DNA from: Geodermatophilus sp. DSM 44513
Lineage (GTDB): Bacteria; Actinomycetota; Actinomycetes; Mycobacteriales; Geodermatophilaceae
DNA: 64,000 bases
Reading direction: 5' to 3'
Assembly: GCF_032460525.1 (NCBI RefSeq)
Contig: NZ_CP135963.1
Span: 1,674,001 to 1,738,000, forward strand
The notes under the pieces were generated by a model. It saw nothing but the letters and a program-made list of their open reading frames with translations. It was not told the DNA's origin and ran no database searches. The position numbers were made by a program, and so were the translations under genes. The stretch's first letter is position 1, and each line of letters starts with the position of its first letter. Below are positions 2,441-46,803 of the stretch, piece by piece.

Positions 2441-2554
2441 AGGAGGACCCCCTCGCCCCCCACGACGTGCTCCGTGGAAGGACCCCGTCCTCCTCACCAC
2501 TCGCGAGCTCGCGGCGAGCCTCGGGACGGGGCCGCCCTGCGAGGGGGCCGTTCC
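2441..2554 (+). repeat. Stop-codon-associated palindromic element, composite (nested) copy
   Basis: Begins directly after the glnA2 TGA. The outer left part (2441-2477) starts AGGAGGACCCCCTCGC and the outer right part (2534-2554) ends GCGAGGGGGCCGTTCC. Between them, 2478-2533 is itself a complete element running from AAGGACCCCGTCC to GGACGGGGCC around a CTCGCGAGCTCGCGG core. Removing the inner copy restores a good match to the single copies elsewhere in the window (for example 36154-36213). Ends form imperfect inverted repeats, GGAAGGACCCCCT type against AGGGGGCCGTTCC. Confidence 0.75.
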
Positions 2555-2568
2555 ATAAGCTCACCTCC

Positions 2569-3309
2569 GTGGCCCGCCTGCTCGTCGTCGTCCCCTCCGA
2601 GACCGACCCGCCCGCCCGGCTGGGCGGCTGGCTGGTGGACGCCGGGCTGACGCTCGACGAGCGGCACCTGGGCACCGGCGACCCGCTCCCGGAGACGCTG
2701 GACGGCGTCGACGGGCTGCTGGTCCTGGGCGGGCCGCAGTCGGCGATGGACGACGAGGCGACCAGCCCCGAGCTGACCGGCGTCCGCCGGCTGCTGGGTC
2801 AGGCGCTGGCGGCCGACGTCCCGACCCTGGCCGTGTGCCTGGGCGCCCAGCTGCTGGCCGAGGTCGGCGGCGGCCGGGTGCGCACGGGCGTGGACGGGCC
2901 GGAGGTCGGGGCGACCCTGGTCGCGAAGCGGGACGCCGCGGACGCCGACCCGCTGTTCGCCCCGCTGCCGATGACCCCCGACGTCATCCAGTTCCACCAC
3001 GACGAGATCGCCGAGCTGCCGCGCGGGGCCACCCTGCTCGCCAGCAGCCCCGCCTACCCGCACCAGGCCTTCCGCGTCGGCCGGCACGTCTACGGCGTGC
3101 AGTTCCACATCGAGACGACACCCGAGGTCGTCGAGGAGTGGGCCACCCGCGACACCGTCGGCGTGGCCGCCAGCGGGCTGGACCGGGCCACGGTCGTCGC
3201 CCGGTCCACGGCCGTGCACCCCGACCTCGAGGAGGTGTGGGCGCCGTTCGCCGCCCGCTTCGCCGACCTCGTCCGCAGCCGCGACCGCTCAGGGGCGGCC
3301 ACACCGTGA
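2569..3309 (+). CDS. Class I glutamine amidotransferase domain protein
   Basis: 246 residues forming a stand-alone class I (triad) glutamine amidotransferase. The nucleophile motif LAVCLGAQLLAEVGGG supplies the Cys, GVQFHIETTPEVVEEW supplies the His, and the Glu follows two residues later, so the triad appears complete. Proteins of this type often annotate as GMP-synthase-like amidotransferases; the acceptor substrate is unknown. The GTG at 2569 is the first good start after the palindromic element. Its stop overlaps the glnE start (GTGA at 3306-3309), so the two genes are probably co-translated. Position between glnA2 and glnE fits a role in glutamine handling, which is inference. Confidence 0.85.
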   Translation: MARLLVVVPSETDPPARLGGWLVDAGLTLDERHLGTGDPLPETLDGVDGLLVLGGPQSAMDDEATSPELTGVRRLLGQALAADVPTLAVCLGAQLLAEVGGGRVRTGVDGPEVGATLVAKRDAADADPLFAPLPMTPDVIQFHHDEIAELPRGATLLASSPAYPHQAFRVGRHVYGVQFHIETTPEVVEEWATRDTVGVAASGLDRATVVARSTAVHPDLEEVWAPFAARFADLVRSRDRSGAATP

Positions 3310-6300
3310 CGGCCGGCGCACCGGAGGTCCCCCGGCGGGCCGTCGTCCGGCTGGTGCGCTTCGGTTTCGGCGACGGCGAGCGGGCCGCCCGCCTGCTGTC
3401 CGACCCCGCGATGGGGCTGTGGGACCTCGAGCGCAACGAGCCGGCCGACCCCGAGGCCGGGCCCGTCGTGGCGGCCGTGGCGCGCACCGGCGACCCGGAC
3501 CTCGCCGTCCGGTCGCTGCGCCGGCTGGTGGAGGCGCTGGACGCCGAGGACCCCACCGGCGGCGCGGCGGCCGCCCTGCTCGCAAGGCTGCGCGGCTCGG
3601 CGCTGCTGCGCTCCCGGCTGCTCGCCGTGCTGGGCGCCAGCTCCGGCCTGGCCGACCACCTGGCCGCCCACCCCGGCGACTGGGCCGTGCTCGACGACGA
3701 CGACGGCCGCGGCCCCGCGCGGCCCACCCCGCAGGCGCTGCAGCGGCAGATGCTCACCGCCGTCGGCGCCGACCCCGACGACCCCCCGTGGGGCGTGCGG
3801 CTGGGCCGGGCCGCACCGGACGCCGACCCGCAGCGGGTCGCCGGCCTGCGGCTGGCCTACCGCCGGGCCGTCCTGTCCCTCGCCGGCCGGGACCTCGCCG
3901 AGGGCCTGCCCGCCGAGGACGTCGCCGCCGAGCTCGCCGACGTCGCCGCCGCGGTGCTCACCGCGGGCCTGGCCGTGGCGGTCGCCGAGCAGCCCGCCGA
4001 CGCGCCCGCCTGCCGGCTGGCCGTCATCGGGCTGGGCAAGTGCGGCGGCCGGGAGCTCAACTACGTCAGCGACGTCGACGTGGTCTTCGTCGCCGAGCCG
4101 GTCGACCCCGGGGACGCCGAGGCGGCGCCGGCGCTCCGGAGCGCCACCCGGGTCGCCGCCGCGCTCATGCGGGTGTGCCGCGAGGCGGCCTGGGAGGTCG
4201 ACGCGGCGCTGCGCCCGGAGGGCAAGGCCGGCGCGCTGGTCCGCACCCTGTCCGGGCACGCCGCCTACTACGCGCAGTGGGCCAGCACCTGGGAGTTCCA
4301 GGCGCTGCTGAAGATGCGCCCGGTGGCCGGGGACCCCGACCTCGGCCGGGCCTACGTCGAGGAGCTGTTCCCGCTGGTCTGGCAGGCCGGGGAGCGGCCC
4401 GGTTTCGTCGCCGAGGTGCAGGCGATGCGCCGACGGGTGCTGGAGAACATCCCGCCCGCCCAGGCCGAGCGCGAGCTGAAGCTCGGCCGCGGCGGGCTGC
4501 GCGACGTGGAGTTCGCCGTCCAGCTGCTGCAGCTGGTGCACGGGCGGGTCGACGGGCGGCTGCGGGTGGGCGGCACCCTGCCCGCGCTGGCGGCGCTGCG
4601 GGCCGGCGGCTACGTCGGCCGCGACGACGCCGACACCCTCATCGCCTCCTACCGCTTCCTGCGCACCGTGGAGCACCGGCTGCAGCTGCTCCGGCTGCGC
4701 CGCACCCACCTGCTGCCCACCGACGACGCCCAGCTGCGCTGGCTGGCCCGCTCGCTGGGCTACAAGCCCGACCACCGGGGGGACGCCGTCGCCGTCCTGG
4801 ACGCCGAGCTGTCGCTGCACACCCGCGAGGTGCGCCGGCTGCACGAGAAGCTCTTCTACCGGCCGCTGCTGTCGGCGGTGGCCAAGGTGCCGCCGGAGGC
4901 CGCGCAGCTGGGCTCCAAGGCCGCCGGTGACTGGCTGCGCGCGCTGGGCTTCGCCGACCCCGACGGCGCGCTGCGGCACATGGCCGCGCTCACCGGCGGG
5001 GTGTCCCGCTCGGCGTCGATGCAGAAGTACCTGCTGCCGGTGGTGCTGCAGACCCTCGCCGACTGCGCGGACCCCGACGCCGGCCTGCTGGCCTACCGCT
5101 CCGTCAGCGAGGCCCTCGGCGGCAACCAGTGGTACCTGCGGCTGCTGCGCGACGAGGGCCAGGTCGCCGAGCGACTGGCCCAGCTGCTGGGCTCCAGCCA
5201 GTACCTCACCGCGCTGCTCACCCGCACGCCCGAGGCGCTGCGGATCCTCGCCGACGACGACGAGCTGCGCCCGCGCACCGCCGAGGCGCTGACCCGGGCC
5301 TGGCGGCAGGCCGCCGGGCGGGCCGCGGACCCCACCGCCGGCATCCGGGTGCTGCGCGGGCTGCGCCGCTCCGAGCTGCTGCGGGTGGCAGCCGCGGACC
5401 TGCTCGGCATGCTGGACGTCGCACAGGTCGGCCGGGCACTCACCGACATCGCCGTCGCCGTGCTGCAGGTCGGCCTGGACGTCGCCGTGCGGGCGCACGC
5501 CGCCGCGGCCGGCACCACGCCGCAGGAGCTGCCCACCGACGTCGCCGTCATCGGCATGGGCCGCCTGGGTGGCGGGGAGATGGGCTACGGCTCGGACGCC
5601 GACGTGCTGTTCGTGCACCGGCCGCGGCCGGGCGCGGAGGAGGGCCGGGCCACGGCGGCGGCCAACGCGGTCGCGCACACGCTGCGCCGGCTGCTCGCCG
5701 AGCCGGCGCCGGACCCGGCCTTCGCCATCGACGCCGACCTGCGACCGGAGGGCCGCCAGGGCGCGCTGGTGCGCAGCCTGGACTCCTACCGGGAGTACTA
5801 CGAGCGCTGGATGTCGGTGTGGGAGTGCCAGGCGCTGCTGCGCGCCGTGCCGGTGGCCGGCGACGAGGCCCTGGGGACGGCGTTCACCGAGCTGGTCGAC
5901 CCGATCCGCCACCCGGCCGCGGGGCTCACGCCCGAGCAGGTCGCCGAGATCCGCCGGATCAAGGCGCGGGTCGAGCGCGAGCGGCTGCCCCGGGGCGCGG
6001 ACCCGACGACGCACACCAAGCTCGGCCGCGGGGGGCTGGCCGACGTCGAGTGGACCGTGCAGCTGCTGCAGCTGCAGCACGCCGCCGGGACACCCGCGCT
6101 GCAGGTGACCTCCACCGTCGCGGCCCTGCACGCGCTGCGCGAGGCGGGGCTGGTCGACGCCGAGCAGGCCGAGACCCTGCAGCGGGCGTGGGAGCTGGCC
6201 AGCCGGGCCCGCAACGCGGTGTTCCTGGTGCGCGGGCGGCCCAGTGACCAGCTGCCCCGCCCGGGCGTGGAGCTGGCCGGCGTGGCGCGGGCCAGCGGCT

Positions 6301-6413: not shown

Positions 6414-6457
6414 GCGCGGTGGGTGTGCCGGGCGCCCCGGCAGGGCAGGAGGAGGGG

Positions 6458-6769
6458 GTGTCCCAGCCCGCGCCCGACGACCAGGTCCCGAACGACGCCC
6501 CGCTGCGGCCCGGCGGGGCCACCATCACCCCCTACCGGGACGGACCGCTGATCGTCCGCGGCGACTTCCGGCTGGTCGACCAGGACGGCGGGGAGATCGA
6601 CCCCGGCCGGGAGACCGTGGCGCTGTGCCGGTGCGGCAAGTCCGGCATCAAGCCGTTCTGCGACGGCTCGCACAAGCGGGCCGGGTGGTCCGCGCCCAGC
6701 GCCCCCAGCCGCCCCCGCCCGGCCGCACAGATCCGCCCCGACGCCGGCCCGGGGGACGACACCCGCTGA
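6458..6769 (+). CDS. CDGSH-type iron-sulfur domain protein
   Basis: About 103 residues with one CDGSH signature, CRCGKSGIKPFCDGSHK, which binds a 2Fe-2S cluster through three Cys and one His. Bacterial members are small soluble redox or cluster-transfer proteins of mostly unknown partner. An AGGAGG ribosome-binding site at 6447-6452 lies five bases ahead of the GTG at 6458; the earlier in-frame GTG at 6419 has no such site, so 6458 is used. It converges with the haem-oxygenase-fold gene at 6894-7904; in other actinomycetes CDGSH proteins and these enzymes are often neighbours (recollection, not checked). Confidence 0.9.
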   Translation: MSQPAPDDQVPNDAPLRPGGATITPYRDGPLIVRGDFRLVDQDGGEIDPGRETVALCRCGKSGIKPFCDGSHKRAGWSAPSAPSRPRPAAQIRPDAGPGDDTR

Positions 6770-6893
6770 GCTCTGGGCCGGCTCCGAGGAGATGGGGCCG
6801 GCCCCGCGTCTCGTGCACACACCGCTGCCGCGCGACCGTCCCGTTCGCGGTGGGTGCACGAACGGTCCACCGGACGGGGTGCGAGCCCTCGCC

Positions 6894-7904: not shown

Positions 7905-8092
7905 GGAGATCCCCATGCCCAGGACCGCGGCCGTCGATGCACGTCGGCGGTGTGGTGTGCACCCACGGGTGGGGGGATCCACCGGCCGCCACGTGACGAT
8001 CCGGTTGCGACGGGCGCCGGCGGGTTCGGGACGGCGCCGTCCTGGGCAGGGCAGACGGAGCCCGCCGACCCCCACCGGGAGGACGTCGTCCC

Positions 8093-13651: not shown

Positions 13652-13669
13652 CACGTAGGGAGGGCGCCC

Positions 13670-19956: not shown

Positions 19957-19974
19957 GGTGCCGGTCAGTGACCC

Positions 19975-20034
19975 GTGGCCCCCTGCCGGGGCCCGCTGCG
20001 AGCCGGCCAGCGGTGGGGGACAGGGGGTCCTTGG
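19975..20034 (-). repeat. Stop-codon-associated palindromic element, copy after glnA1
   Basis: Reading the minus strand, TGA of glnA1 is followed after three bases by AGGACCCCCTGTCCCCCAC, a CGCTGGCCGGCTCGCAGCGG core, and a right arm ending GGCAGGGGGCC. The two ends can pair into a long imperfect hairpin. Confidence 0.7.
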
Positions 20035-22052: not shown

Positions 22053-22116
22053 GGGAGGAGTGCCCTGCCCCCCACTCGCCAGCTCGCGGCGGGGCCCTGC
22101 AGGGAGGCCGCCGGGG
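22053..22116 (+). repeat. Stop-codon-associated palindromic element, copy after the RDD gene
   Basis: Follows the RDD TGA directly: GGAGGAGTGCCCTGCCCCCC, then CACTCGCCAGCTCGCGGCGG, then GGCCCTGCAGGGAGGCC. It fills the space between the convergent RDD and DUF4191 stops, so it could work as a two-way terminator. Confidence 0.7.
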
Positions 22117-35209: not shown

Positions 35210-35216
35210 GCCCGGG

Positions 35217-36125
35217 TCAGGCCGGCTGCAGGGCCGCCCGGAAGGCCTCGTCCAGGTCGCGGTGGGTCCACCGGTAGCCGGCCCGCTCCAGGACCGCCGG
35301 CAGCGCGCGCTGGCCGGCCAGGACGCTGGACCGGCCGAACTCGCCGAGGGCCAGGGCGAGCACCGGCCCGGGCACCGGCAGCACGGCCGGCCGGTGCACC
35401 GCCGCGGCCAGCCGCCGGACGAACTCGGCGTTGGTGACGGGCTCCGGGCCGGTGAGGTTGACCGGCCCGGAGACGTCGGCGGTCAGCAGGAAGCGGATCG
35501 CGCCCACCTCGTCGTCCAGGCTGATCCAGGGCCAGTACTGCCGTCCCGACCCCATCCGGCCGCCCAGGCCGGCCTTGAAGACGAGTCCGAGGATGCGCAC
35601 GAGCATGGCGTCGGGGCCGACCACCAGCCCGGTGCGCAGGTGGGCCACCCGGACGCCGGCGTCCTCGGCCGGCCGGGTCGCGGCCTCCCACTCGGCGCAC
35701 AGCCGGGCCAGGAAGTCGCTGCCGGCAGGCGCGTCCTCCTGCACCGGTCGGTCACCGGTGTCGCCGTAGTAGCCGACCGCCGAGGCCGACAGCAGCACCC
35801 TCGGGCGGGCCGGGTCCGCGGGTGCGGCGGCCGCCAGGGCCTCGCTCACCGTCGCGGTGCTGTCCAGCCGGCTGGCGCGCAGCTGCTCCTTGTACCCGGC
35901 GGTGAACGGCCGCGGGCGGATGGGCGTGCCGGCCAGGTTCACCACGGCGTCCACGTCGGCCAGCACCGCCGGGTCGATCCGCCGGTGCTGCGGGTCCCAG
36001 CGGTGCTCGTCGGCCGTGCGCGGTGTGCGGCGCACCAGCCGCAGCACCTCGTGCCCGTCGGCGCGAAGTGCCGGGACCAGCCGGGACCCGATCAACCCGG
36101 AGGAGCCGGTGACCGCGACCTTCAA
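35217..36125 (-). CDS. TIGR01777-type SDR/epimerase family protein
   Basis: 302 residues, an extended short-chain dehydrogenase of the TIGR01777 group (E. coli YfcH, Mycobacterium Rv2216 from memory). Nucleotide site VAVTGSSGLIGSRLVPAL at the N-terminus, VVNLAGTPI, a SASAVGYYGDTGD active-site region with Tyr in the GYYG motif, and a C-terminal DUF1731-like domain. Reaction unknown. The start is TTG at 36125, supported by GGAGGAG seven bases upstream and by the family N-terminus MKVAVTGSSG. Located between lipB-side genes and sucB, as in Mycobacterium. Confidence 0.92.
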   Translation of the reverse strand: MKVAVTGSSGLIGSRLVPALRADGHEVLRLVRRTPRTADEHRWDPQHRRIDPAVLADVDAVVNLAGTPIRPRPFTAGYKEQLRASRLDSTATVSEALAAAAPADPARPRVLLSASAVGYYGDTGDRPVQEDAPAGSDFLARLCAEWEAATRPAEDAGVRVAHLRTGLVVGPDAMLVRILGLVFKAGLGGRMGSGRQYWPWISLDDEVGAIRFLLTADVSGPVNLTGPEPVTNAEFVRRLAAAVHRPAVLPVPGPVLALALGEFGRSSVLAGQRALPAVLERAGYRWTHRDLDEAFRAALQPA

Positions 36126-36153
36126 CGAAACTCCTCCGGGGGTCTGAGCCGAC

Positions 36154-36213
36154 GTGGCCCCCTGCAGGGGCCCACCGCGAGCGTGCGAGTGGTGGGGGGC
36201 AGGGGGTCCTTCG
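36154..36213 (-). repeat. Stop-codon-associated palindromic element, copy after sucB
   Basis: Minus strand: TGA, three bases, then AGGACCCCCTGCCCCCCAC, CACTCGCACGCTCGCGGTGG, and GCCCCTGCAGGGGGCC. One of the two cleanest single copies; arms CCCCCTGC and GCAGGGGG pair, and an inner CGAGCGTGCGAG palindrome adds a second stem. Confidence 0.75.
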
Positions 36214-38169
36214 TCAGCCGAGGCCGAGCTCGCCGTGGAACTGGCCGCCCTCCAGCCGCTGCTTCACCGTGGTGAGGAAGCGGGCGGCGTCGGCGCCGTC
36301 GACGATGCGGTGGTCGTAGGTCAGCGCCAGGTAGACCATCGACCGCACCGCGATCACCTCGCCGAGGTCGGGGTCCTGGACGACGACCGGACGCTTGACC
36401 ACCGTGCCGACGCCGAGGATCGCCACCTGCGGCTGGTTGATGATCGGCGTGTCGAACAGCGCCCCGCGGCTGCCGGTGTTGGTCAGCGTGAACGTGCCGC
36501 CGCCGAGCTCGTCGGGGGTGACCTTGTTGGCGCGGGTCCGGTCGGCCAGGTCGGCCGTCTTGCGGGCCAGGCCGCCGATGCTGAGGTCGCCGGCGTCCCG
36601 GATCACCGGCACGAGCAGCCCGCGCTCGGTGTCCACCGCGACGCCGAGGTTCTCCGCGTCGTGGTAGGTCACCGTGCCGGCCTCGAGGTCGATCGAGGAG
36701 TTGACCGCCGGGTGCGCCTTGAGCGCCTCCACCGCCGCCTTGGCGAAGAACGGCAGGAAGGACAGCTTGACGCCCTCGCGGGCCTCGAAGTCCCGCTTGG
36801 CCCGGTCGCGCAGCCGCGCGATGGCGGTGACGTCGGCCTCCACCACCGTGGTCAGCTGGGCGCTGACCTGCAGCGACTCCACCATCCGGCGGGCGATCAC
36901 ACCGCGCAGCCGGGACAGCTTCTCGGTGCGCCCGCGCAGCGTGGTGTCCGGCTGCGCGGCCGGCGACGGGCTCGGCGCCGGCCGGCCGGAGGCCGCGGCC
37001 GGGGCCTCCGCCGGGGCCTCGGCGGGTGCCTCCGCCGACGTCTCGGCCGGGGCGGCGGTCTGCTCGGCGGCGGCGATGACGTCCTGCTTGCGGATCCGCC
37101 CGCCGACACCGGTCCCGGTGACCGACGAGAGGTCCACACCCCGCTCGGCGGCCAGCCGGCGCACCAGCGGGGTGACGTACTGACCGCCGCCGTCCCCGGT
37201 GGGTGCCGGGGACGGGGTCTTCGGGGCCGCGGGGGCCTGCGGGGCCACCGCCTGCGCCGGCGAGGGCGCGTCGGTCGGGGAGGTGCTCGGCAGCACCCCG
37301 CCGGTGCCGTAGTCCGCTCCCGGTGCCGCGGACCCCGGCTTGGCCTGCTGCGGCGTGGGGTCGGCCTGCGGGGTCGGCTCGGTCGCCTGCGAGGGCGGCG
37401 TCGGGTCCCGCTGCTCCTGCTGGGACTGCGGCTGCTGCGGGGCCGGGGTCTCCTGCTGGGCGGGGGTCTCCTGCTGGGCGGGAGCGGGCTGGGACGGCGC
37501 GCTGCCACCGGCCGAGCCCGAGCCGATCACGGCCAGCTCCGCGCCGACGTCCACGGTCTCGTCCTCGCCGACCGAGATCGACAGCAGGGTGCCCGACACC
37601 GGCGCGGGGATCTCGGTGTCGACCTTGTCGGTGGACACCTCCAGCAGCGGCTCGTCCGCGGTCACCTCGTCGCCGACGGACTTCAGCCAGCGGGTCACGG
37701 TGCCCTCGGTGACGCTCTCCCCGAGCGCCGGCATGGTCACCGTCGTCCCCTCGCCGCCGCCGGAGTCACCGCCGCCGGACCCGCCCGCGCCGGACCCGCC
37801 CGAGGACGCCGGGGCGGGCTCGGGCTCGGGCTCCGGCTCGGGCTGGGTGTCCTGCGCCGGGGCCTGCTCCTGCTCCGGCTGGGCCGGGGCCTCGGCGGTG
37901 TCCGGGGCGGCGGCCGGAGCGCCACCGTCGCCGTCCCCGCCGATGACCGCCAGCTCCGCGCCGACGTCCACGGTCTCGTCCTCCGAGACCAGGATCTTGG
38001 TGAGCACGCCGGCGGCCGGGGACGGGATCTCGGTGTCGACCTTGTCGGTCGACACCTCGAGGAGGGGCTCGTCGACCTCCACCTGCTCGCCCTCCTGCTT
38101 GAGCCAGCGGGTGACCGTGCCCTCGGTGACGCTCTCGCCCAGGGCGGGCATGGTGACGGACGTCGGCAT
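36214..38169 (-). CDS. sucB: Dihydrolipoamide acyltransferase (E2), 2-oxoacid dehydrogenase complex, succinyltransferase type
   Basis: 651 residues. Two lipoyl domains with the lipoylated Lys in STDKVDTEI (Lys43 and Lys182), joined by long Pro/Ala/Glu/Gln-rich linkers, then a peripheral-subunit-binding domain ([20 protein letters not shown] region, residues about 330-370) and the catalytic domain with [17 protein letters not shown] holding the active-site His. In actinomycetes this E2 serves pyruvate dehydrogenase and is often shared, so sucB is a conventional name. ATG at 38169 after AAGGAG. 41 bases downstream of lpdA, probably one operon. A repeated QQETPA segment lies in the second linker. 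Confidence 0.95.
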
Positions 38170-38210
38170 CGACGCGGGCTCCTTCTGGCTCCGGGGGAGG
38201 GTGGGGTGGG

Positions 38211-39590
38211 TCAGCTGTGCGCGTGCAGGGGCTTGCCGGCCAGCGCCAGGTGCGCCTCGCCCAGGGCCTCGCTCTGCGTGGGGTGCGCGTGGATCAGGCT
38301 GGCCACGTCGTCGGCCTCGGCCTCCCAGTTGTAGATCAGCTGGGCCTCGGCGATGAGCTCGCCGACCCGGCTGCCGACCATGTGCACGCCGACCACGGGG
38401 CCCTCCGGTGCCTGGACCAGCTTGACCGCGCCCTGGGTCTTGAGGATCTGGCTGCGGCCGTTGCCGCCGAGGTCGTAAGTGAGCACCTTGACGTCGCCGT
38501 AGCGCTCCTTGGCCTGGGCCTCGGTGAGGCCGACCGAGGCGACCTCGGGCTCGGAGTAGGTGACCCGGGGGACGCCGGCGTAGTCGATGGGCGCCGGCTC
38601 CAGCCCGGCCAGGCGCTCGGCGACGAGGATGCCCTCGCCGAAGCCGACGTGCGCCAGCTGCAGACTGGGGACGAGGTCGCCCACGGCGGAGATGGTCTCC
38701 ACGTTGGTGCGCATGTACTGGTCGACGAGCACGTAGCCGCGCTCCATCGCCACGCCGGCCTCCTCGTAGCCCAGGCCCTGGCTGACCGGGCCGCGGCCGA
38801 CGGCGACGAGCAGGAGCTCGGCCTCGATCTCCTTGCCGTTCTCCAGCGAGACCGTCACGCCGTTCTCGGTGGTCTGCACGCCGGAGACCTTGCTGCCCAG
38901 CTCGAAGTTGATCTTCCGGCGGCGGAAGGCGCGCTCGAGCAGCTTGGAGGAGGACTCGTCCTCCAGCGGCACCAGGTGCGGGAGGGCCTCGACGATCGTC
39001 ACGTCGACGCCGAAGGACTTCCACGCGCTGGCGAACTCGCAGCCGATCACGCCGCCGCCGAGGATGACCGCCGAGGTGGGCACGTGGTCCAGGCTCATCG
39101 CGTGGTCGCTGGTGAGGACCTTGGTGCCGTCGATGTCGATGCCCGGCAGGGTGCGCGCGTAGGAGCCGGTGGCCAGCAGCACGTGCTTGCCCTCGTAGCG
39201 CTGCCCGGCCACCTCGACGGCGGTGGGGGAGACCAGCCGGCCCTCGCCCTCGACGTACTGGATGCCGCGGCTCTTGATCAGCCCCTGCAGGCCCTTGTAC
39301 AGCCGGGAGACGACGCCGTCCTTGTAGGCGTTGACGCCGTCCATGTCGATGCCGGCCAGCGACGTCTTGACGCCGAACTGCTCGCCCTCGCGGGCACTGT
39401 CGGCGATCTCGCCGCTGTGCAGGAGCGCCTTGGTGGGGATGCAGCCACGGTGCAGGCAGGTGCCGCCGACCTTGTCCTTCTCGATCAGGACGACGGACAG
39501 GCCCAGCTCGGCGGCGCGCAGGGCTGCGGCGTAGCCACCGGAACCACCGCCGAGGATGACCAGGTCGGCGGGCGAGGTGGGTGCGCTCAC
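38211..39590 (-). CDS. lpdA: Dihydrolipoyl dehydrogenase (E3)
   Basis: Flavoprotein that reoxidises dihydrolipoamide of 2-oxoacid dehydrogenases and the glycine cleavage system, passing electrons to NAD+. 459 residues. FAD site [18 protein letters not shown], redox disulfide [15 protein letters not shown] (CX4C), NAD site [15 protein letters not shown], and the C-terminal His-Glu pair in [13 protein letters not shown]. The GTG at 39590 has GAGGAGAG at good spacing. Followed by sucB in the same direction. Confidence 0.97.
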
Positions 39591-39743
39591 GAGTCTCTCC
39601 TCGGGTGCCGGGGTCCCGCCCGTTCACACGCGCGGGGGATGATGCCCGCCCATCCTGCCACCCCGGGAACGCGGCGGCGGAACGCACCGTTGGCAGCGCG
39701 GACGTCGCGACCCGAGCGCGACCCGGGAGGGACGGGAGCGGGC

Positions 39744-40088
39744 ATGGGCCTGTGGGGCCGGCTGCGCCGGCGGACGCCGAGCCGTGGGACGCCGGACCGC
39801 AGCACGCTGGATCGTGCTGCCGGCCGGGGTGACGTCGCCCACCTGGAGCAGTTCGTCGCCACCCGGCGCGGTGTGGAGGGGTACGTCGAGCCCCGGACGG
39901 CGGTCACCGAGACCACGATCGTGCTGGTGGCCGCGGACGGCGAGTGGACCCGGCGCCGCATCGACGGGCCGGAGACCGCGCGGCGGCTGTCCCGTGAGCT
40001 CGGGATCCCGGTGTACGACGCCCAGGTCACCGGCTACCCGCAGCGCATGCGCGACTGGACGGCGCGCCAGCGCCGGGACCGCCCCTGA
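39744..40088 (+). CDS. Hypothetical actinobacterial protein
   Basis: 114 residues, not recognised. A basic N-terminus ([15 protein letters not shown]), then a compact alpha/beta region: [37 protein letters not shown] and [26 protein letters not shown] text (cited as [20 protein letters not shown]). No signal peptide or membrane helix. The ATG at 39744 has GGGAG upstream. It sits between lpdA (divergent) and pepA (convergent). The final Tyr-Pro-Gln-Arg-Met motif looks conserved-protein-like but function is unknown. Confidence 0.65.
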
Positions 40089-40107
40089 CGGTGGCCGCCC
40101 CGGCACC

Positions 40108-41616
40108 TCACCGGGCGACGAGGTCCTCGATGGCGGCCAGCAGGGTGCGCACGGGGACGCCGGTGCCGCCCTTGGGCGTGTAGCCCCACGGCGCACCGGT
40201 GTTGTAGGCGGGGCCGGCGATGTCGATGTGCGCCCAGGGCAGGCCCGCGGGCACGAACTCGGCCAGGAAGTGCGCGCCGACGAGCATGCCGCCCATCCGG
40301 TCGGCGTTGGCGTTGACGAAGTCCGCTACGGGAGAGTCGATGCCCCGGCGCAGTTCGGCCGGCATCGGCATGGCCCACATGGCCTCGCCGCTGCGGGCCG
40401 AGGCGGCGACGACGGCGTCGCGCATCTCGTCGCTGCCCATCACGCCCGCGGTCCGCGAGCCCAGCGCCACCAGCTGGGCGCCGGTGAGGGTGGAGGTCTC
40501 CAGGATGACGTCGGGGGAGTCCTCGGCCGCGCGGGCCAGGGCGTCGGCCAGGACGACGCGGCCCTCGGCGTCGGTGTTGGTGATCTCGGCCTTCTTGCCG
40601 TTGCGGAAGGTCACCACGTCGGCGGGGCGGTAGGCGGTCCCGCTGGGCAGGTTCTCCGCGATCGGCACCGTCGCGGTGAGCTCGACCGGCAGGCCGAGCC
40701 GGGCGACCAGGCAGGCGGTGGCGATCACGGCGGCGGCGCCGGCCATGTCGCTGGTCATGTGGTGCATGTTCGCGGCCGGCTTGATCGATAGGCCGCCGCT
40801 GTCGAAGGTGATCCCCTTGCCGACCAGGGCGACCCGCGTGCGCGGCCGCTTGCCGCTGTAGGCCAGCCGCAGCAGGCGCGGACCGCGCGCGGAGCCCCCA
40901 CCGACGGCGAGCACCCCGCCGTAGCCGCCGGCGGCCAGCGCCGCCTCGTCGAGCACCTCCACGGCCAGCCCGGCCTGCTTGCCGGCGGCCGCACCGCGGG
41001 CGGCCAGCTCGGCGGGGTACAGGTCGTTGGGCGGGGTGTTCACCAGGTCGCGCACCAGGGCGACGGCCTCGGCGACCGCCCGGGCGCGCTCCAGCGCGGC
41101 CTTGGCGGCGCCGGCGTCGGGGACGACGACGGTGAACTCGCGCGGCGGCGTGGGTCGGCCGTCGAGGTCGGACTTGTAGGCGGTGAACTCGTAGGCGCCG
41201 AGGAGGCTGCCCTCCCCGACGGCGTGCAGGCGCTGGTCGTCCGGCGTCCCGCCGACGGCGGCCAGCAGGGTGACCAGCGAGCGGCGGCCGGCCAGTGCCC
41301 GGCTGGCGGCACCGGCCGCCCGCCGGACCGCTTCGGCGGTGTACCCGCCCTCGGGCCGGGGCGCGCCCAGGCCGACGGCGGCGACCACCGGGAAGGGGCC
41401 CTGGCCCAGCGAGGCGACGCGGGTGACCTCGTCCTCCGCACCCCGGGCGCCCAGGTCGGCCAGGGCGCTCATCAGGCGACCGCCCAGCAGGCGGTCGACC
41501 GCCTCCGCGCCCGGTGTCGGCAGCAGGCCGCCGGGGCCCTTGCCGATGCCGACGACGACGGCGTCGGCGCGGGTCTTCTCGAGCGGGCGGTCGGTGGCGG
41601 AGATCGTCGGCGGCAC
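40108..41616 (-). CDS. pepA: Leucyl aminopeptidase (M17)
   Basis: Cytosolic zinc/manganese aminopeptidase, hexameric in the family. 502 residues. Metal and catalytic motifs are intact: [20 protein letters not shown] (metal-binding Lys and Asp) and [14 protein letters not shown], the family signature with catalytic Arg. The N-terminal macro-like domain is present. The GTG at 41616 is chosen because TACGAT ends six bases upstream. Divergent from gcvT with only 87 bases between the two start codons; Mycobacterium pepB has the same neighbours from memory. Confidence 0.96.
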
Positions 41617-41622
41617 CGGACG

Positions 41623-41628
41623 ATCGTA
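41623..41628 (-). promoter_or_regulatory. -10 box of pepA
   Basis: TACGAT on the minus strand, six bases before the GTG at 41616. Confidence 0.5.
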
Positions 41629-41690
41629 GGAGGACCGGCCTGCCCCCGCGCCTCGCAGGTCGGCCGCGGGACCCGGCGGCGTCGCCGCGT

Positions 41691-41696
41691 TAGCGT
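41691..41696 (+). promoter_or_regulatory. -10 box of gcvT
   Basis: TAGCGT ends seven bases before the GTG at 41704. With the pepA box it makes a compact divergent promoter pair. Confidence 0.5.
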
Positions 41697-41703
41697 GCCG
41701 TCC

Positions 41704-42834
41704 GTGACCGCGCCGATGCCGACCCGCACCTCGCCCCTGCACGACCGGCACCTGGCGGCCGGCGCCAAGCTGGCCGACTTCGGCGGCTGGTCGATGCCGA
41801 TCGAGTACGCCGGGGGTGGCGTGCTGGCCGAGCACGAGGCGGTCCGCACCGGGGTCGGGCTGTTCGACGTCTCCCACCTGGGCACCGCGACGGTCCGCGG
41901 GACCGGTGCCGCGGCGTTCGTCGACAGCTGCCTGTCCAACGACCTCTCCCGCATCGGTCCGGGCCAGGCGCAGTACACGATGTGCTGCCTGCCCGACGGT
42001 GACCCGCGGGCCGGTGGCGTGGTCGACGACCTGATCGTCTACCTGCACGGGCCCGACGACGTCCTGCTGGTGCCCAACGCCGCCAACGCCGCCGAGGTCG
42101 TGGCCCGGCTGGCCGACGCCGCCCCCCCGGGGGTGACGGTCACCGACCGGCACACCGAGGTCGCCGTCCTCGCCGTGCAGGGCCCCCGCTCGCTGCCGCT
42201 GCTGGCCTTCCTCGGGCTGCCCGGTGAGCTGCCCTACATGTCCTTCGTGACCGGCCTGGGCGGCGGCTCGGCCGAGGTCACCGTGTGCCGCACCGGCTAC
42301 ACCGGCGAGCACGGCTACGAGCTGCTGGTGGGCGCCGAGCACGCCGGCGAGCTGTGGGACGTGCTGGTCGAGCACGGCCGCGACGAGGGGCTTCGGCTGT
42401 GCGGGCTGGGTGCCCGGGACACCCTGCGCACCGAGATGGGCTACCCGCTGCACGGCCACGAGCTCTCACCCGACATCACCCCGGTGCAGGCCCGCGCCGG
42501 CTGGGCGGTGGGCTGGCGCAAGCCGGCCTTCTGGGGCCGGGCTGCCCTGCTGGCCGAGAAGGAGGCCGGGCCGGCGCGCCTCCTCTGGGGCCTGCGCGCA
42601 CCGGGCCGGGGGATCCCGCGGCCGGGGATGGCCGTCCTCGACGCCGGCGGGGCCCGCGTCGGTGAGGTCACCAGCGGCACCTTCTCGCCGTCCCTGCGCA
42701 CCGGCATCGCCCTGGCCCTGCTGGACACCGCGTCCGGCGCGGGCGAGGACAGCGAGCTGGCCGTGGACGTGCGCGGGCGGCCGCAGCCGGTGCAGGTGGT
42801 GCGGCCGCCCTTCGTGCCCTCCCGCGTGCGCTGA
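41704..42834 (+). CDS. gcvT: Glycine cleavage system aminomethyltransferase (T protein)
   Basis: Tetrahydrofolate-dependent T protein that releases ammonia and methylene-THF from the aminomethyl-lipoyl H protein. 376 residues. Conserved [28 protein letters not shown] with the catalytic-loop Asp, [12 protein letters not shown] and [20 protein letters not shown]. No gcvP, gcvH or glyA lies in the window, as in Mycobacterium where gcvT is separate. Uses lipoate made by lipA/lipB and the lpdA-encoded E3. Confidence 0.96.
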
Positions 42835-42900
42835 AGAAGGACCACCCTCCCCCCCACGCCTCGCTGCGCTCGGCGCGTGCCCCTGGAGGGTGGCCGTTCC
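42835..42900 (+). repeat. Stop-codon-associated palindromic element, copy after gcvT
   Basis: After TGA and three bases: AGGACCACCCTCCCCCCCAC, GCCTCGCTGCGCTCGGCGCG, then CCCTGGAGGGTGGCCGTTCC. Arms GGACCACCCTCC and GGAGGGTGGCC are complementary with compensating changes relative to other copies, which supports selection on the hairpin. Right terminal GGCCGTTCC matches the copies at 2554 and 45622. Confidence 0.75.
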
Positions 42901-42912
42901 AACAGCTCACTC

Positions 42913-44052
42913 TCAGCCCGCGTTCTTGTGGGTGGGGTCCTTGTCCTCCTTCGAGGGCTCGGGCTTGTCCGGCAGGCTGTCGGCGACGACGGCGTCCCGC
43001 TCGCCCATCGGCGCCGGCGGGCCCTCGGTGGTGTCCTGCGCGGTCTGGTGCTCGGCCTCGGAGTTGATCTCCGCGCCGAGCAGCAGCAGGTAGCAGGTGA
43101 TGTACAGCCACAGCATCAGCACGATGACGCCGGCGATCGTCCCGTAGGTCTCGTTGTACGAGCCGAACCGGTCGACGTAGAAGCTGAACGCCACGCTGAC
43201 CAGGGCCCAGACGACGGTCACCACCACCGCGCCGAGGCTGACCCAGCGCAGCTTGGGGGCGTCCCGGTCCGGTGCCACCCGGTACAGGACGGCGAGCGAC
43301 CCGGCGAACACCCCGAGCAGCAGCACCCACCGCGCCACCTGGGTGAGGACGGTGGCGAACGGCCCCAGCGGCAGGGCGTCCAGCACCACCGGGACGACGG
43401 CCACCAGGCTGAAGGTGACCAGCACGAAGACGATGGCGCCGAGGGTGAGCACCAGGGAGGTCGCCCGCAGCTTGACGAAGTTGCGGGTCTCGACCTCGTC
43501 GTAGGCCAGGTTGACCGCGGTGATCAGGTTGCCCATGCCGCCGGAGACGCTCCACAGCGCGCCGGCCAGCGAGACGACCAGGCTGAGGCTGAGCGCGCCC
43601 CCGTTGCCGGTGGCCAGGCTGCGCAGCTGCTCGCCGATGAGCTGCGCCGCCTCCTCGGGCAGCTGCGCGGAGAGGTCCTCGATCTGGCGGGTGACCGTCT
43701 CCGGTGAGGCGACCAGGCCGTAGAGGGAGATGGTCGCGATCAGCGCCGGGAAGATGGACAGGAAGCCCCAGAACGCCACGCCGCCGGCGATGATCGGCAT
43801 GTTGTCGGCGTTGTGCTCGGCCCACGCCCGCTTGAGGATCTGCTTCCAGCCCCGCCAGGGGATCTCCGTCGGCGTGTCCGCGGTGATCCCGGGCAGCCGG
43901 TCCTCACCGGGTGCTCCCGGCGGGGGCCGGTCGGCCTGCGGGTGCGGCGCGCGGGCCTCGGCGGCCTTCGCGGCCGCCCGCCGGGCCGCCTTCTCCTCGA
44001 CCCGCTCCCTGATCCGGTCGACCGCGCTCTCCCGGGGCCTGGTGCTGCTCAC
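42913..44052 (-). CDS. YihY/BrkB family inner-membrane protein
   Basis: 379 residues. Cytoplasmic charged N-terminus (1-85), then six membrane helices with the family motifs NMPIIAGGVAFWGFLSIFPAL and LWSVSGGMGNLITAVNLAYDE, and a hydrophilic acidic tail. Despite older names (ribonuclease BN, BrkB), the family is of uncertain, probably transport-related, function. Last gene of a four-gene operon (holin-like, DUF3618, DUF4235, YihY), with its GTG two bases beyond the DUF4235 stop. The operon as a whole looks devoted to the cell envelope. Confidence 0.92.
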   Translation of the reverse strand: MSSTRPRESAVDRIRERVEEKAARRAAAKAAEARAPHPQADRPPPGAPGEDRLPGITADTPTEIPWRGWKQILKRAWAEHNADNMPIIAGGVAFWGFLSIFPALIATISLYGLVASPETVTRQIEDLSAQLPEEAAQLIGEQLRSLATGNGGALSLSLVVSLAGALWSVSGGMGNLITAVNLAYDEVETRNFVKLRATSLVLTLGAIVFVLVTFSLVAVVPVVLDALPLGPFATVLTQVARWVLLLGVFAGSLAVLYRVAPDRDAPKLRWVSLGAVVVTVVWALVSVAFSFYVDRFGSYNETYGTIAGVIVLMLWLYITCYLLLLGAEINSEAEHQTAQDTTEGPPAPMGERDAVVADSLPDKPEPSKEDKDPTHKNAG

Positions 44053-44053
44053 G

Positions 44054-44329
44054 TCAGTCGCCCGGCCAGTTGCCGGTCAGCTTGGTGAAGCCGCGGGCGC
44101 CGAGCCGGTCGATGGCGGCCTTGGTCGCGGCGAAGATGGCCCCCTGCAGGGCCGCGGCGAGCACGACCTCGCGCATCCGGTACTCGCTCTGCAGGGCGTC
44201 CGGTGCGTCGTCCTCGTCCGACAGGCGCTTCCACACCTGCTTGAACACCGCTCCGGACACGACACCGGCGAGGACGCCGCCGAGCAGGCCGATCGGCCGG
44301 TAGACGAGCTTGGCCCCGGTGCTGCTCAC
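44054..44329 (-). CDS. DUF4235 family small membrane protein
   Basis: 91 residues. KLVYRPIGLLGGVLAGVVSGAVFKQVWKRL forms the first membrane segment (cited as VYRPIGLLGGVLAGVVSG), then an acidic loop DEDDAPDA, and a second hydrophobic segment LAAALQGAIFAATKAAIDRLG. DUF4235 proteins almost always follow DUF3618 and holin-like genes in actinobacteria; function unknown. GTG at 44329 overlaps the DUF3618 stop (GTGA). Confidence 0.9.
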   Translation of the reverse strand: MSSTGAKLVYRPIGLLGGVLAGVVSGAVFKQVWKRLSDEDDAPDALQSEYRMREVVLAAALQGAIFAATKAAIDRLGARGFTKLTGNWPGD

Positions 44330-44793
44330 CGCGTCCTCCTCGCGGCCCGCCGAGCGCGGGTCCGCTCCGCCGTCCGGCGTGCCGCCCGCTTCGCGGCCTT
44401 CCGCGCGGTCCTGCGGGCCGCCTTCTCCGCCGCGGCCTGACGGGCGGCGGCCACCCTGACCTCCCGCTTCGCCCGGCGCGCGGCCCGGCGGCGGTCCCGG
44501 GTGCTGCGCCGCCACACCAGCAGGCCGAGCAGCGCGGCCAGGCCGGCCCCGGCGCCGATGACCGCAGGCGGGTTCTCCCGGTAGGTCTCGACCGCGGTGT
44601 CCCGGGCGCGGAAGGCGCTCTCCCGGGCCCGCTCGGGGACGTCGAGGCGCTGCGACAGCTCGTCGACCGTGCGGCCGAGCTGCTCGCGGGTGGCCTCGAT
44701 GTCGGCCTTGATGGCGTCCGGGTCGTTCGGCGTCGCGCCGCGGGCCGACGTCCGGTCCCGCCCGTCGGCGCCGGAGCTGACTGGTGTGCTCAC
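44326..44793 (-). CDS. DUF3618 family membrane protein
   Basis: 155 residues. N-terminal soluble helix with DPDAIKADIEATREQLGRTV and DELSQRLDVPERARE, the DUF3618 signature, one membrane helix (PAVIGAGAGLAALLGLLVW) near residues 75-95, then a long strongly basic C-terminal tail (many KxAAR/RTARKAAKRAARR units) that could contact phospholipid head groups or nucleic acid. Starts within the last codon of the holin-like gene. Role unknown. Confidence 0.9.
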   Translation of the reverse strand: MSTPVSSGADGRDRTSARGATPNDPDAIKADIEATREQLGRTVDELSQRLDVPERARESAFRARDTAVETYRENPPAVIGAGAGLAALLGLLVWRRSTRDRRRAARRAKREVRVAAARQAAAEKAARRTARKAAKRAARRTAERTRARRAARRTR

Positions 44794-45245
44794 CGGCGTG
44801 CACTCTCCTTCACGGTCGCGATGTCGGCCTTGGTGCTGGCGATGGCCTCGGTGGGCACCGGCGGTGCGCCCTTCTCGACGTCCTTCTTGCCGACCAGCGC
44901 CAGCACGCCGGCGACGGCGAACAGCACCACGGCCACGACGAGGGCGGCGAGCCAGGCGGGCAGCACCAGGGCCAGGGCGAGGACGGCGGCGGCGACCAGG
45001 ACGGCCAGGCCGAGGAAGGCGAACAGCCCGGCACCGCCGAACAGCCCGGCACCGCCGAAGAGCCCGGCGCCGACGCCCAGCCGCTTGGCCTTCTGGGCGA
45101 CCTCCGCCTGCGCGAGCCGGGCCTCGTCGCGCACCAGCCGGCTGACCTGCTCGGTCAGCTGGCCGATGAGCTGGCCGGTCGAGGCGTCCGCGGGGGCGGG
45201 GGGCGGGGTGGGCGCGCGGCTGGCGCCCACCGTGGGGTCGGTCAT
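44790..45245 (-). CDS. Phage-holin-family (DUF1469) membrane protein
   Basis: 151 residues. Amphipathic helix STGQLIGQLTEQVSRLVRDE and ARLAQAEVAQKAKRLGVGAG, then two membrane helices (LAVLVAAAVLALALVLPAWL and AALVVAVVLFAVAGVLALVG). The segment GAGLFG is repeated three times in succession between them. The family name is historical; these genes belong to housekeeping envelope operons and are not prophage. First gene of the operon. C-terminal ADIATVKESARR resembles the DUF3618 N-terminus. Confidence 0.9.
   Translation of the reverse strand: MTDPTVGASRAPTPPPAPADASTGQLIGQLTEQVSRLVRDEARLAQAEVAQKAKRLGVGAGLFGGAGLFGGAGLFAFLGLAVLVAAAVLALALVLPAWLAALVVAVVLFAVAGVLALVGKKDVEKGAPPVPTEAIASTKADIATVKESARR
45021..45074 (-). 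repeat. 18-bp coding tandem repeat, three copies
   Basis: GAACAGCCCGGCACCGCC (plus-strand sense) occurs twice exactly (45021-45056), followed by a third copy with three changes; encodes GAGLFG three times at the edge of the first membrane helix. Confidence 0.9.
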
Positions 45246-45356
45246 CGGTCCTCCGAACCGGGCAGCGGTGTCGAGGTGCTCACATGCCCCCGATGATCGC
45301 CCGGGTAACCCCCTGCCGGCACCCGGGCGTCGCCGCCCGCCCGGCCGCCGAGCACA

Positions 45357-45362
45357 TAGCCT
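45357..45362 (+). promoter_or_regulatory. -10 box of the 70-residue gene
   Basis: TAGCCT ends six bases before the ATG at 45369. Confidence 0.5.
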
Positions 45363-45368
45363 GCGGCC

Positions 45369-45581
45369 ATGAGCTGGTACTGGCGGCTGGAGGACCCCAC
45401 GGGGGCGGTGATGGACCCCGCCGAGGTCGGGGTGGAGGTCCCGCAGGCGGACAACCAGGGTGACGCGGAGTCCTGGCTGGGGGAGAACTGGCGCGGCCTG
45501 CTCGAGCGCGGGGTCGCCACGGTGACCCTGTTCGACGGGGACCGGCGGGTCTACGGCCCGATGGGCCTCGCCCCCGCCTGA
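45369..45581 (+). CDS. Small conserved-looking hypothetical protein
   Basis: 70 residues, acidic, no membrane segment. Reads MSWYWRLEDPTGAVMDPAEV, then QGDAESWLGENWRGLLERGV and a beta-like ATVTLFDGDRRVYGPMGLAP. Well-formed start (TAGCCT box, ATG), stop and immediate terminator hairpin argue for a real monocistronic gene. I do not recognise a domain; similar short proteins occur widely in actinomycetes as far as I recall. Confidence 0.8.
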   Translation: MSWYWRLEDPTGAVMDPAEVGVEVPQADNQGDAESWLGENWRGLLERGVATVTLFDGDRRVYGPMGLAPA

Positions 45582-45608
45582 GCCTCGACCTCCATCGGAG
45601 GTCGAGGC
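45582..45608 (+). terminator. Terminator of the 70-residue gene
   Basis: GCCTCGACCTCC (45582-45593), loop ATC, GGAGGTCGAGGC (45597-45608): a perfect 12-bp stem beginning on the base after the stop codon. Confidence 0.9.
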
Positions 45609-45621
45609 CAGGCGAGGGACG

Positions 45622-45741
45622 GGAACGGCCCCCTCGTAGGGCCCTGCGCCGAGCGGAGATCGGCCCCCTCGCAGGGTCCCGCCGCGAGCCTGCGAGTGAC
45701 GGGGGGCGAGGGGGTCCTTCCTGGGGGGCAGGAAGGTCCTT
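45622..45741 (-). repeat. Stop-codon-associated palindromic element, composite copy after the aldo-keto reductase
   Basis: Minus strand: TGA, three bases, AGGACCTTCCTGCCCCCC (outer left, 45723-45741), then a complete inner element from AGGAAGGACCCCCTCGCC through ACTCGCAGGCTCGCGGCGGG to CCCTGCGAGGGGGCC (45662-45722), then an outer right part ending CCCTACGAGGGGGCCGTTCC (45622-45661). Like the copy at 2441 it reads as one element inside another. Confidence 0.7.
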
Positions 45742-45743
45742 CG

Positions 45744-46727
45744 TCAGCCGCGGGCGGTCTTGGCGGGATCGCGCTCGACCACGTCGCCGAGGACGTCGTC
45801 GATGCGGGCGAGCACGTCGGCGTCGAGGGTGACCCCGGCCGCCGCCACGTTGTCGTGCACCTGCTCCGGCCGCGTCGCCCCGATGATCGCCGCCGCGACG
45901 TTGCGGTTCTGCAGCACCCAGGCGATGGCCAGCTGGGCCATGGACAGGCCCAGGTCGTCGGCGACCGGCCGCAGCTGCTGGACCCGCGTCAGGACGTCGT
46001 CGGTCATGAACCGCTGGATGAACCGGCCGGCGTCCGGGTCGCTGGCCCGGCTCCCCGGCGGCGGCTGCTCACCGGGCACGTACTTGCCGGTCAGCACGCC
46101 CTGTGCCAGCGGCGACCAGACGATCTGCGACACGCCCTCCCGTTCCGAGGTGGGCACGACCTCGGCCTCGATGACCCGCCAGAGCATCGAGTACTGCGGC
46201 TGGTTGCTGATCAGCTGGACGCCGAGGTCGCGGGCCAGGGCGGCGCCCGCGGCGATCTCCTCGGCGTTCCACTCCGAGACGCCGATGTAGAGCACCTTGC
46301 CGGCCCGGACGAGGTCGGCGAAGGCGGTCATCGTCTCCTCCAGCGGCACCGTCGGGTCGTAGCGGTGCGCCTGGTAGAGGTCGACGTAGTCGGTCTGCAG
46401 CCGCCGCAGCGAGGCGTGGCAGCTCTCCACGACGTGCTTGCGGGACAGCCCGCGGTCGTTGTGCCCGGGGCCGGTGGGCCAGTAGACCTTGGTGAAGACC
46501 TCCAGGCCCTCGCGGCGCTGGCCGGCCAGCGCGCGGCCGAGCACCGACTCGGCCCGGGTGCCGGCGTAGACGTCGGCGGTGTCGAAGGTGGTGATGCCGG
46601 CGTCGAGGGCGGCGCGGACGCAGGCCTGGGCCGCGTCCTCCTCGACCTGGCCGCCGTGGGTGAGCCAGTTGCCGTAGGCGATGGCGGAGATGGAGAGGCC
46701 GGAACGGCCCAGTCGTCGGGATTCCAC
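45744..46727 (-). CDS. Aldo/keto reductase
   Basis: 327 residues, NADPH-dependent reductase of the group that includes Kv-beta-like AKRs. The catalytic tetrad is visible: Asp and Tyr in FDTADVYAGTRAESVLG, Lys in FTKVYW, His in YQAHRYDP; the cofactor loop SNQPQYSMLWR and C-terminal IIGATRPEQVHDN fit. Physiological substrate unknown. The GTG at 46727 is supported by TAGCGT eight bases upstream; an earlier in-frame ATG at 46766 would lie inside the palindromic element. Monocistronic, with palindromic elements on both sides. Confidence 0.93.
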   Translation of the reverse strand: MESRRLGRSGLSISAIAYGNWLTHGGQVEEDAAQACVRAALDAGITTFDTADVYAGTRAESVLGRALAGQRREGLEVFTKVYWPTGPGHNDRGLSRKHVVESCHASLRRLQTDYVDLYQAHRYDPTVPLEETMTAFADLVRAGKVLYIGVSEWNAEEIAAGAALARDLGVQLISNQPQYSMLWRVIEAEVVPTSEREGVSQIVWSPLAQGVLTGKYVPGEQPPPGSRASDPDAGRFIQRFMTDDVLTRVQQLRPVADDLGLSMAQLAIAWVLQNRNVAAAIIGATRPEQVHDNVAAAGVTLDADVLARIDDVLGDVVERDPAKTARG

Positions 46728-46735
46728 GCCGTCCG

Positions 46736-46741
46736 ACGCTA
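46736..46741 (-). promoter_or_regulatory. -10 box of the aldo/keto reductase gene
   Basis: TAGCGT on the minus strand, eight bases before the GTG at 46727, directly adjoining the palindromic element at 46744. Confidence 0.45.
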
Positions 46742-46743
46742 GT

Positions 46744-46803
46744 GGAAGGACCCTCCTGCCCCCCACCGCTCGCAGGCTCGCGGCGGGACCCTGCAGGAGG
46801 GCC
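46744..46803 (+). repeat. Stop-codon-associated palindromic element, single copy after DUF3043
   Basis: Plus strand: GGAAGGACCCTCCTGCCCCC, then CACCGCTCGCAGGCTCGCGG, CGGGACCCTGCAGGAGGGCC. Here the right end, not the left, lies next to the stop codon (DUF3043, minus strand, 46806). Arms GGACCCTCCTGC and GCAGGAGGGCC pair. Confidence 0.75.

Follow-up and report, generated by a model that had tools for sequence, protein, structure and literature searches.

A Geodermatophilaceae family of about 66-bp palindromic elements, probably mobile and often placed just behind stop codons

Mycobacterial interspersed repetitive units (MIRUs) are short actinobacterial elements at gene junctions, where they touch stop or start codons and occur in tandem copies; they are direct-repeat units and are not known as strong palindromes. 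Insertion sequences (IS) of the IS200/IS605 type have hairpin ends and insert 3' of a short AT-containing target without duplicating it, and miniature inverted-repeat transposable elements (MITEs) of the RUP, Correia and NEMIS types are non-autonomous, intergenic and hairpin-forming, with IS-like inverted termini and TA-type duplications. Repetitive extragenic palindromes (REPs) are described in PMC3733652 as occupying unidirectional and convergent gaps near the 3' ends of open reading frames (ORFs), with ends able to supply stop codons, and the CGTC REPs are said there to have no dedicated REP-associated tyrosine transposase (RAYT). The main text of that paper mentions neither Geodermatophilus nor Actinobacteria, and the mentions of repeats in the part of PMC9686282 considered here concern CRISPR. 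Here we describe a family of imperfect palindromes of about 66 bp in Geodermatophilus sp. DSM 44513, represented by seven loci in one window of 64,000 nucleotides (the whole stretch analysed, bases 1674001-1738000 of the 4.63-Mb single-contig genome; 75% GC). On balance, we favour the reading that these are non-autonomous mobile elements specific to the Geodermatophilaceae, similar to REPs and bacterial interspersed mosaic elements (BIMEs) yet distinct from them, which insert beside a TRR sequence (R, purine) and probably have a secondary use at 3' ends.

Membership, structure and range of the family

A preliminary description of the window had proposed that seven intergenic loci share one plan in both orientations, and our analysis confirms that they belong to one family. 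A covariance model (R1) built from 38 copies matches all seven with 51.7 to 86.1 bits (E 2.3e-17 to 1.7e-9, 64 kb searched), those at 19975, 36154 and 45622 on the minus strand. Because six of the seven loci or their sub-copies (all but 45622) were among the 38 model-building sequences, this recovery is partly by construction, and the independent evidence for the family is its genome-wide matches. The core pattern, with up to three mismatches, was found 205 times in the genome (103 forward, 102 reverse) versus 0 times for the reversed pattern. The covariance-model search that had been proposed for finding further copies did find them: 400 kb of evenly spaced stretches together with the window gave 46 matches with E up to 1 and 44 with E<0.002, 37 of the latter in the 400 kb alone. 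Extrapolation yields about 430 copies per genome; the error of this estimate is wide, given the overdispersion of counts per 20 kb (mean 1.85, variance 4.77). Along the chromosome the copies are clumped, 8 of 20 evenly spaced 20-kb stretches being empty (L062, L065, L070, L071, L074 and L078-L080) and one (L073) holding seven. A replichore polarity seemingly shown by the core matches listed was dropped, as both strands were mixed in the evenly spaced sample when inspected by eye. No Rfam family reached its gathering score within the window, and, as first stated, no described family was found to match, at least in the open-licence PMC literature searched.

The element is a hairpin of two parts. 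Its outer stem has 11 pairs and a bulged A; its inner hairpin has about 9 pairs, an almost invariant TC/TC internal loop and a very conserved core, CCCCCCACC-R-CTCGC-NN-GCTCGCGG-CGGG. From GGACC to GGCC, pairing extends over about 56 nt. Covariation is strong in the outer stem, and the inner hairpin is conserved in sequence. In an alignment of 38 copies (A3), changes on both sides of a pair were found in 56 cells versus 11.2 (sd 2.5) in shuffles, which bears out the earlier claim that arm changes are compensated; the covariation score was 0.240 versus 0.086 in shuffles and at most 0.106 with slid partners. For 64 copies from relatives, in an alignment fitted to the model, the corresponding values were 161 versus 57.1 (sd 5.4) and 0.338 versus 0.119. 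Covariation thus exceeds that of shuffles and slid partners, as expected of a structured hairpin under a pairing constraint. Single-sequence folding, by contrast, is unremarkable for the GC content, with z-scores against shuffles from -3.4 to +1.2 for the folded strands of the seven loci, three of which fold more weakly than z -1 (22053, +1.18; 45622, -0.23; 19975, -0.78). Of 193 model matches, 97 could be parsed canonically, and in 66 of the 86 among them with equal-length arms the arms are perfectly complementary (shuffled mean 5.6, maximum 14), with 26 different left arms. The 29 copies whose cores are identical apart from two loop bases carry 15 different left arms. The term "terminal inverted repeats", used in the preliminary description, is only loosely right, with the correction that the arms belong to one two-part hairpin and that only 41 of 175 copies have a full GTTCC foot immediately after GGCC.

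Matches to the model were obtained in 34 of 37 genomes of the same family (the genome studied included) and in 0 of 24 genomes of other families of the order, and a wider Geodermatophilaceae draw contained the element in 47 of 57 genomes. The sampled genomes of three genera (g5, g8 and g10), mostly small or incomplete assemblies, are free of it, and one genome (G358) has 0 matches versus 25 to at least 91 in seven congeners scanned. Elsewhere in the phylum, 0 of 295 genomes matched at 1e-5 under strict filters, with only 17 candidates per genome scored. In a pattern scan of named genomes, the 80 matches listed, of 118 stretches, all lie in Geodermatophilaceae (Geodermatophilus, Blastococcus, Modestobacter, Trujillonella and other members of the family). 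Carriage by phages was rejected, as a viral contig collection held 0 matches to the exact core pattern.

In the window, all seven loci follow a common plan: a left foot (GAA or similar), GGACC, a variable arm, CCCCCCAC, CTCGC-NN-GCTCGCGG, CGGG, the complementary arm and GGCC, plus GTTCC in some. By Pfam, the neighbouring genes are glnA2, glnA1, RDD, sucB, gcvT, an aldo-keto reductase and DUF3043, where the names glnA1, glnA2 and sucB are those of the preliminary description and Pfam itself gives glutamine synthetases and a 2-oxoacid dehydrogenase acyltransferase; the convergent partner genes are DUF4191 and a BrkB-family gene. Five loci are single elements, and two (2441 and 45622) turned out to be composites. 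Six loci had been said to begin just behind a stop codon; they do so more sharply than claimed, with exactly 4 nt between stop and GGACC at all six (the motif is GGAGT at 22053). The seventh, as stated, has its right end by the DUF3043 stop. The loci are:

2441..2554, plus strand: nested composite after glnA2, an element inside another element, with outer left half 2441-2475, inner element 2476-2534 (GGACC 2480-2484, GGCC 2530-2533) and outer right half 2535-2554, ending in GGCCGTTCC.
19972..20034, minus strand: simple element 4 nt after the glnA1 stop (57.6 bits).
22053..22113, plus strand: degenerate element that fills the convergent RDD/DUF4191 gap and is without 3 nt of the inner stem (51.7 bits).
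36151..36213, minus strand: simple element 4 nt after the sucB stop (74.2 bits).
42835..42900, plus strand: simple element between the convergent gcvT and BrkB-family genes, with a long right end, GTTCCAACAGCTCAC (71 bits).
45622..45743, minus strand: composite after the aldo-keto reductase stop, with a left-half remnant 4 nt after the stop, a full element (model match 45656-45721) and an extra right half whose GTTCC end is at 45622.
46744..46803, plus strand: simple element between DUF3043 and the reductase (86.1 bits), its left end abutting a CTAG that resembles the -10 box (TAGCGT) of the reductase and its right end 2 nt from the DUF3043 stop.

Position relative to genes and differences between genomes

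The 193 pooled model matches (two with E>0.01) included 190 that could be anchored at GGACC, and 189 after removal of duplicates. With gene calls from a simple codon-usage script, 118 of these 189 copies lie near the stop of a called gene, 117 of them at 0-6 nt and one at 10 nt. The distance d between GGACC and the stop was 4 in 71 copies, 5 in 15, 1 in 13 and 2 in 10; placement relative to stops, for which a distance plot had been proposed, is therefore non-random, with a mode at 4 nt. We also placed 44 copies from the evenly spaced sample and the window in intergenic gaps, after dropping the two weakest matches; one further copy overlapped a gene call. Among gaps of at least 60 nt, 30 of 117 tandem, 12 of 25 convergent and 1 of 48 divergent ones were occupied (non-divergent, 42/142, versus divergent, 1/48; Fisher p=1.6e-5).

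The distance from stop to element varies with the sequence. The 60 distinct stops of the d=4 class are preceded by C in 47 cases, A in 9, T in 2 and G in 2, and 792 other stops by C in 439, G in 266, A in 77 and T in 10; the difference in G, 2/60 versus 266/792, has p=5.5e-8. In the d=1 class, G precedes the stop in 8 of 12. The 72 copies not counted at a stop comprise 20 nested copies, 21 by a gene start and 31 others. A TAA, TAG or TGA triplet is located 0-6 nt before GGACC in 16 of the 21 start-side copies, versus 184 of 2280 comparable intergenic positions, and in 10 of the 31 others; by eye, several of those at gene starts supply the TA of a -10-like hexamer lying near a start codon. Since start-side copies still carry stop-type triplets, the site is better described as the sequence next to TRR than as translation termination itself, although this is no strict rule.

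We compared the dnaA-gyrA region of 20 relatives (one shortened by its contig) and the synteny of the window in five relatives. Across species, the same gap can hold different elements, elements in opposite orientations, nests or nothing, so that presence and absence are polymorphic at orthologous sites. The closest relative compared (G008, 92% mean protein identity) has 3 of 12 comparable copies in common with the genome studied, 2 of 6 in the dnaA-gyrA region and 1 of 6 in the window, the 45622 gap being left out of this comparison. In G008, the RDD/DUF4191 gap also holds an element and the 2441 composite is not present; its gcvT/BrkB-family gap consists of 6 nt and its DUF3043/reductase gap of 25 nt, both empty. 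By eye, the sucB gap (36151..36213) has no element in G008, G015 and G024 and holds elements in G003 and G025. Empty sites were found at gnd-recF, dnaN-gnd, gcvT and 46744. The gnd-recF gap is empty at 24 nt in L084 and L087 and measures 84-174 nt in genomes with elements; in L091, L092 and L093 it has 39-68 nt and no element.

Elements also lie within elements. The gyrB-gyrA gap of L089 holds, by eye, a three-level nest, and two loci of the genome studied, near 206.4 kb and 308.6 kb, share an almost identical nested core, enclosed at each locus by outer arms that are complementary to each other but differ from those of the other locus. The contig ends of G359 (end of L259, start of L260; C24, C18) carry an array of units of exactly 66 bp repeated head to tail. 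Empty sites, nests and this array point to mobility, in agreement with the earlier proposal of a dispersed small element. Losses and recombination could yield some of the presence/absence differences, but hardly the nests and arrays.

The 66-bp array probably breaks the G359 assembly. The gap homologous to 59121-59125 of the window has no element in G000 and G008, where two called genes overlap by 4 bases; in G003, G025, G015 and G024 it contains an element followed by one or two extra right halves, and the right end supplies the called stop of the neighbour. A different small palindrome family is visible between gnd and recF as perfect palindromes of 22-30 bp centred on ATGGCCAT (L091:4746, L092:15086 and L268:14903; 3 in 1.72 Mb), with similar ones in G358. 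At the 3' end of gyrB in L089, L261 (G358) and L267 (G382), the last gyrB bases recur behind the stop, in G358 more than once, which looks like the remnant of an older gene end.

Origin and role of the element

The mechanism and function that we infer for a mobile palindrome are the following. The unit would be copied as a folded single strand, of DNA or RNA, by a host or mobile enzyme that reads the conserved inner hairpin, and its target would be the neighbourhood of a T-R-R sequence or the interior of a resident copy, where a few target bases would often be lost. Copies that landed inside genes would be purged, and the survivors would therefore be those immediately behind a stop codon or upstream of a -10 box. 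Transcribed survivors would probably serve, or at any rate be tolerated, as hairpins at mRNA 3' ends that may block exonucleases or aid termination without a U-tract.

Several results weigh against this reading. No mobilising enzyme was found in searches for Y1 transposases, reverse transcriptases and split elements. The Y1 transposase/RAYT domain (PF01797) was found neither in the genome studied nor in any of 57 genomes of the family, with positives in 5 of 14 control genomes, and was rejected as a partner; IS91-type Y2 (PF04986) gave 0 matches in the genome studied, but the control genomes gave none either. The genome encodes two reverse transcriptases, L274:727-2238 (minus strand, at 4.02 Mb) and L273:1285-2850 (minus strand, at 1.56 Mb), of which PADLOC classes one as UG22-like (defence-associated) and the other as retron-like of uncertain type, and no element lies within 3.5-3.7 kb around either. 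The retron-like enzyme matches in 14 of 34 genomes (its own and fragments included), but none is found in element-rich genomes such as G004 and G014 and it is present in element-poor ones such as G375 and G036; since its distribution does not track the elements, it was rejected as mobiliser, the UG22-like one being outside this cross-genome comparison. A scan of 1.49 Mb, less than the whole genome, showed no transposon with the ends of the element split around a gene and no gene enclosed by element halves, and nests and filled/empty pairs gave by eye no clean case of a target-site duplication.

Other points on the same side concern the copies themselves. A TRR motif precedes GGACC in just 4 of the 20 nested copies, and TRR is therefore not a strict target. 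Across four species of the genus the 29-nt core of the gnd-recF element is identical, and in two further genera it differs at 1-2 positions, so that some copies look old and kept. As to the folded strand, A.C is frequent at inner pairs 22/43 and 26/40 when read on the gene-sense strand, equivalent to G.U on the other; G.T is not among the types listed for these pairs in the wobble test, and one T.G occurs at 26/40 among the copies of relatives. The antisense strand is thus better paired, but at these two inner pairs only, and as the other pairs are without such a bias, this is only a hint that the antisense strand is the folded form.

With a lower probability, the mobile reading can be taken further, to a new class of mobile hairpin in which the inner 29-nt hairpin alone would be the recognised and copied identity and the outer arms would be made anew, complementary to each other, in the course of each move or after it. 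Insertion would be steered by TRR and by the loops of resident copies, the enzyme would be neither a Y1 transposase nor the retron-like reverse transcriptase, and the class would supply interchangeable gene 3' ends across a bacterial family.

We consider it unlikely, if worth serious attention, that the element is a cellular 3'-end signal first, that is, a lineage-specific terminator or RNA-stability hairpin spread by recombination and held by selection at each gene, and not selfish. It is supported by the positions behind stops and in convergent gaps, by the near absence from divergent ones and by the compensated changes in the arms. An example of the latter is a double difference between orthologous gnd-recF copies with the same 29-nt core (L061, L081, L086 and L088), in which one pair is T-A in two species versus G-C in that of the window, and T.G in the sister L081; this single case suggests either that pairing is selected there or that one arm was copied from the other. 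The gyrB-gyrA gap of L098, L099 and L100, where the model has no match, contains another strong hairpin (z -3.0 to -4.6), which is suggestive only, and the z-scores obtained for hairpins in the gyrB, gnd and dnaN slots are mixed. Yet most comparable copies are not common to the closest relative compared, G358 manages without any match, and a terminator has no reason to form nests and an array. At glnA1, moreover, only the genome studied has the element, which none of the five relatives compared shows, and each of the six genomes retains a further hairpin of its own downstream (by eye).

The element is not a classical intrinsic terminator, because a T run of three or more within 15 nt after GGCC was found in 0 of 175 copies (longest T run, 2) and a terminator scan of the region 36000-47000, in which four of the seven loci lie, returned 0. 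The earlier suggestion of a terminator or mRNA 3' end is plausible as a use of the element, but neither a T-tract nor the state of glnA1 supports it.

That these are true REPs whose RAYT was lost, or diverged beyond the reach of Pfam, strikes us as improbable. They do occupy the niche given for REPs in PMC3733652 (unidirectional and convergent gaps near 3' ends, with ends supplying stop codons), and 21 of 189 copies have a GTAG tag within the 9 nt that precede GGACC. GTAG is nevertheless in the minority and CGTC was found in 2 of 189 (only the left foot was counted), the unit of about 66 bp forms a two-domain hairpin, and the Y1 search that was positive in control genomes was negative throughout the family. 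It is very improbable that the element is a protein- or DNA-uptake-related chromosomal motif (similar to a DNA uptake sequence, or a chromosome-organising site) located at gene ends by chance: the very conserved inner core, the estimated several hundred copies and their overdispersed counts would suit a binding site, from which nesting, variable complementary arms and the 66-bp array do not follow. Strand use, moreover, is balanced overall.

For the mobile palindrome that we favour, dozens to hundreds of copies at gene 3' ends would shape transcript ends, assemblies and rearrangements, and such copies are found in the majority of the genomes sampled from this family of stress-tolerant actinobacteria. 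Fixed cores, varied complementary arms, stop-spaced placement and nests make the spread of palindromes such as REPs without a visible transposase directly testable.

Comparison with REPs and other known elements

Compared by description only, the family is like MIRUs in consisting of short actinobacterial elements at gene junctions. Its hairpin form and its position 3' of a short AT-containing sequence are features in common with IS200/IS605-type elements, from which it differs in that no Y1 transposase was found in the 57 genomes of the family and in that it has a single hairpin and not two ends around genes. With the RUP, Correia and NEMIS-type MITEs it has in common that it is non-autonomous, intergenic and hairpin-forming, but no termini or duplications of their kind were seen by eye.

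The closest likeness is to REPs and BIMEs as described in PMC3733652: these, too, are dispersed extragenic palindromes of high copy number that form clusters, lie behind ORFs, mostly in unidirectional and convergent gaps, and have ends that can supply a stop codon. Unlike REPs, which measure 20-40 bp, the family has a unit of about 66 bp, exactly 66 bp in the head-to-tail array, and its hairpin comprises two domains, a variable, covarying outer stem and a fixed inner hairpin. It has no consistent GTAG/CGTC foot and no RAYT in the 57 genomes of the family, and its elements nest inside one another. The family therefore fails the defining tests of a REP, namely foot tag, size of 20-40 bp and RAYT, and it is set apart from REPs by its size, its two-domain structure, the missing tag, the missing RAYT and its self-nesting.

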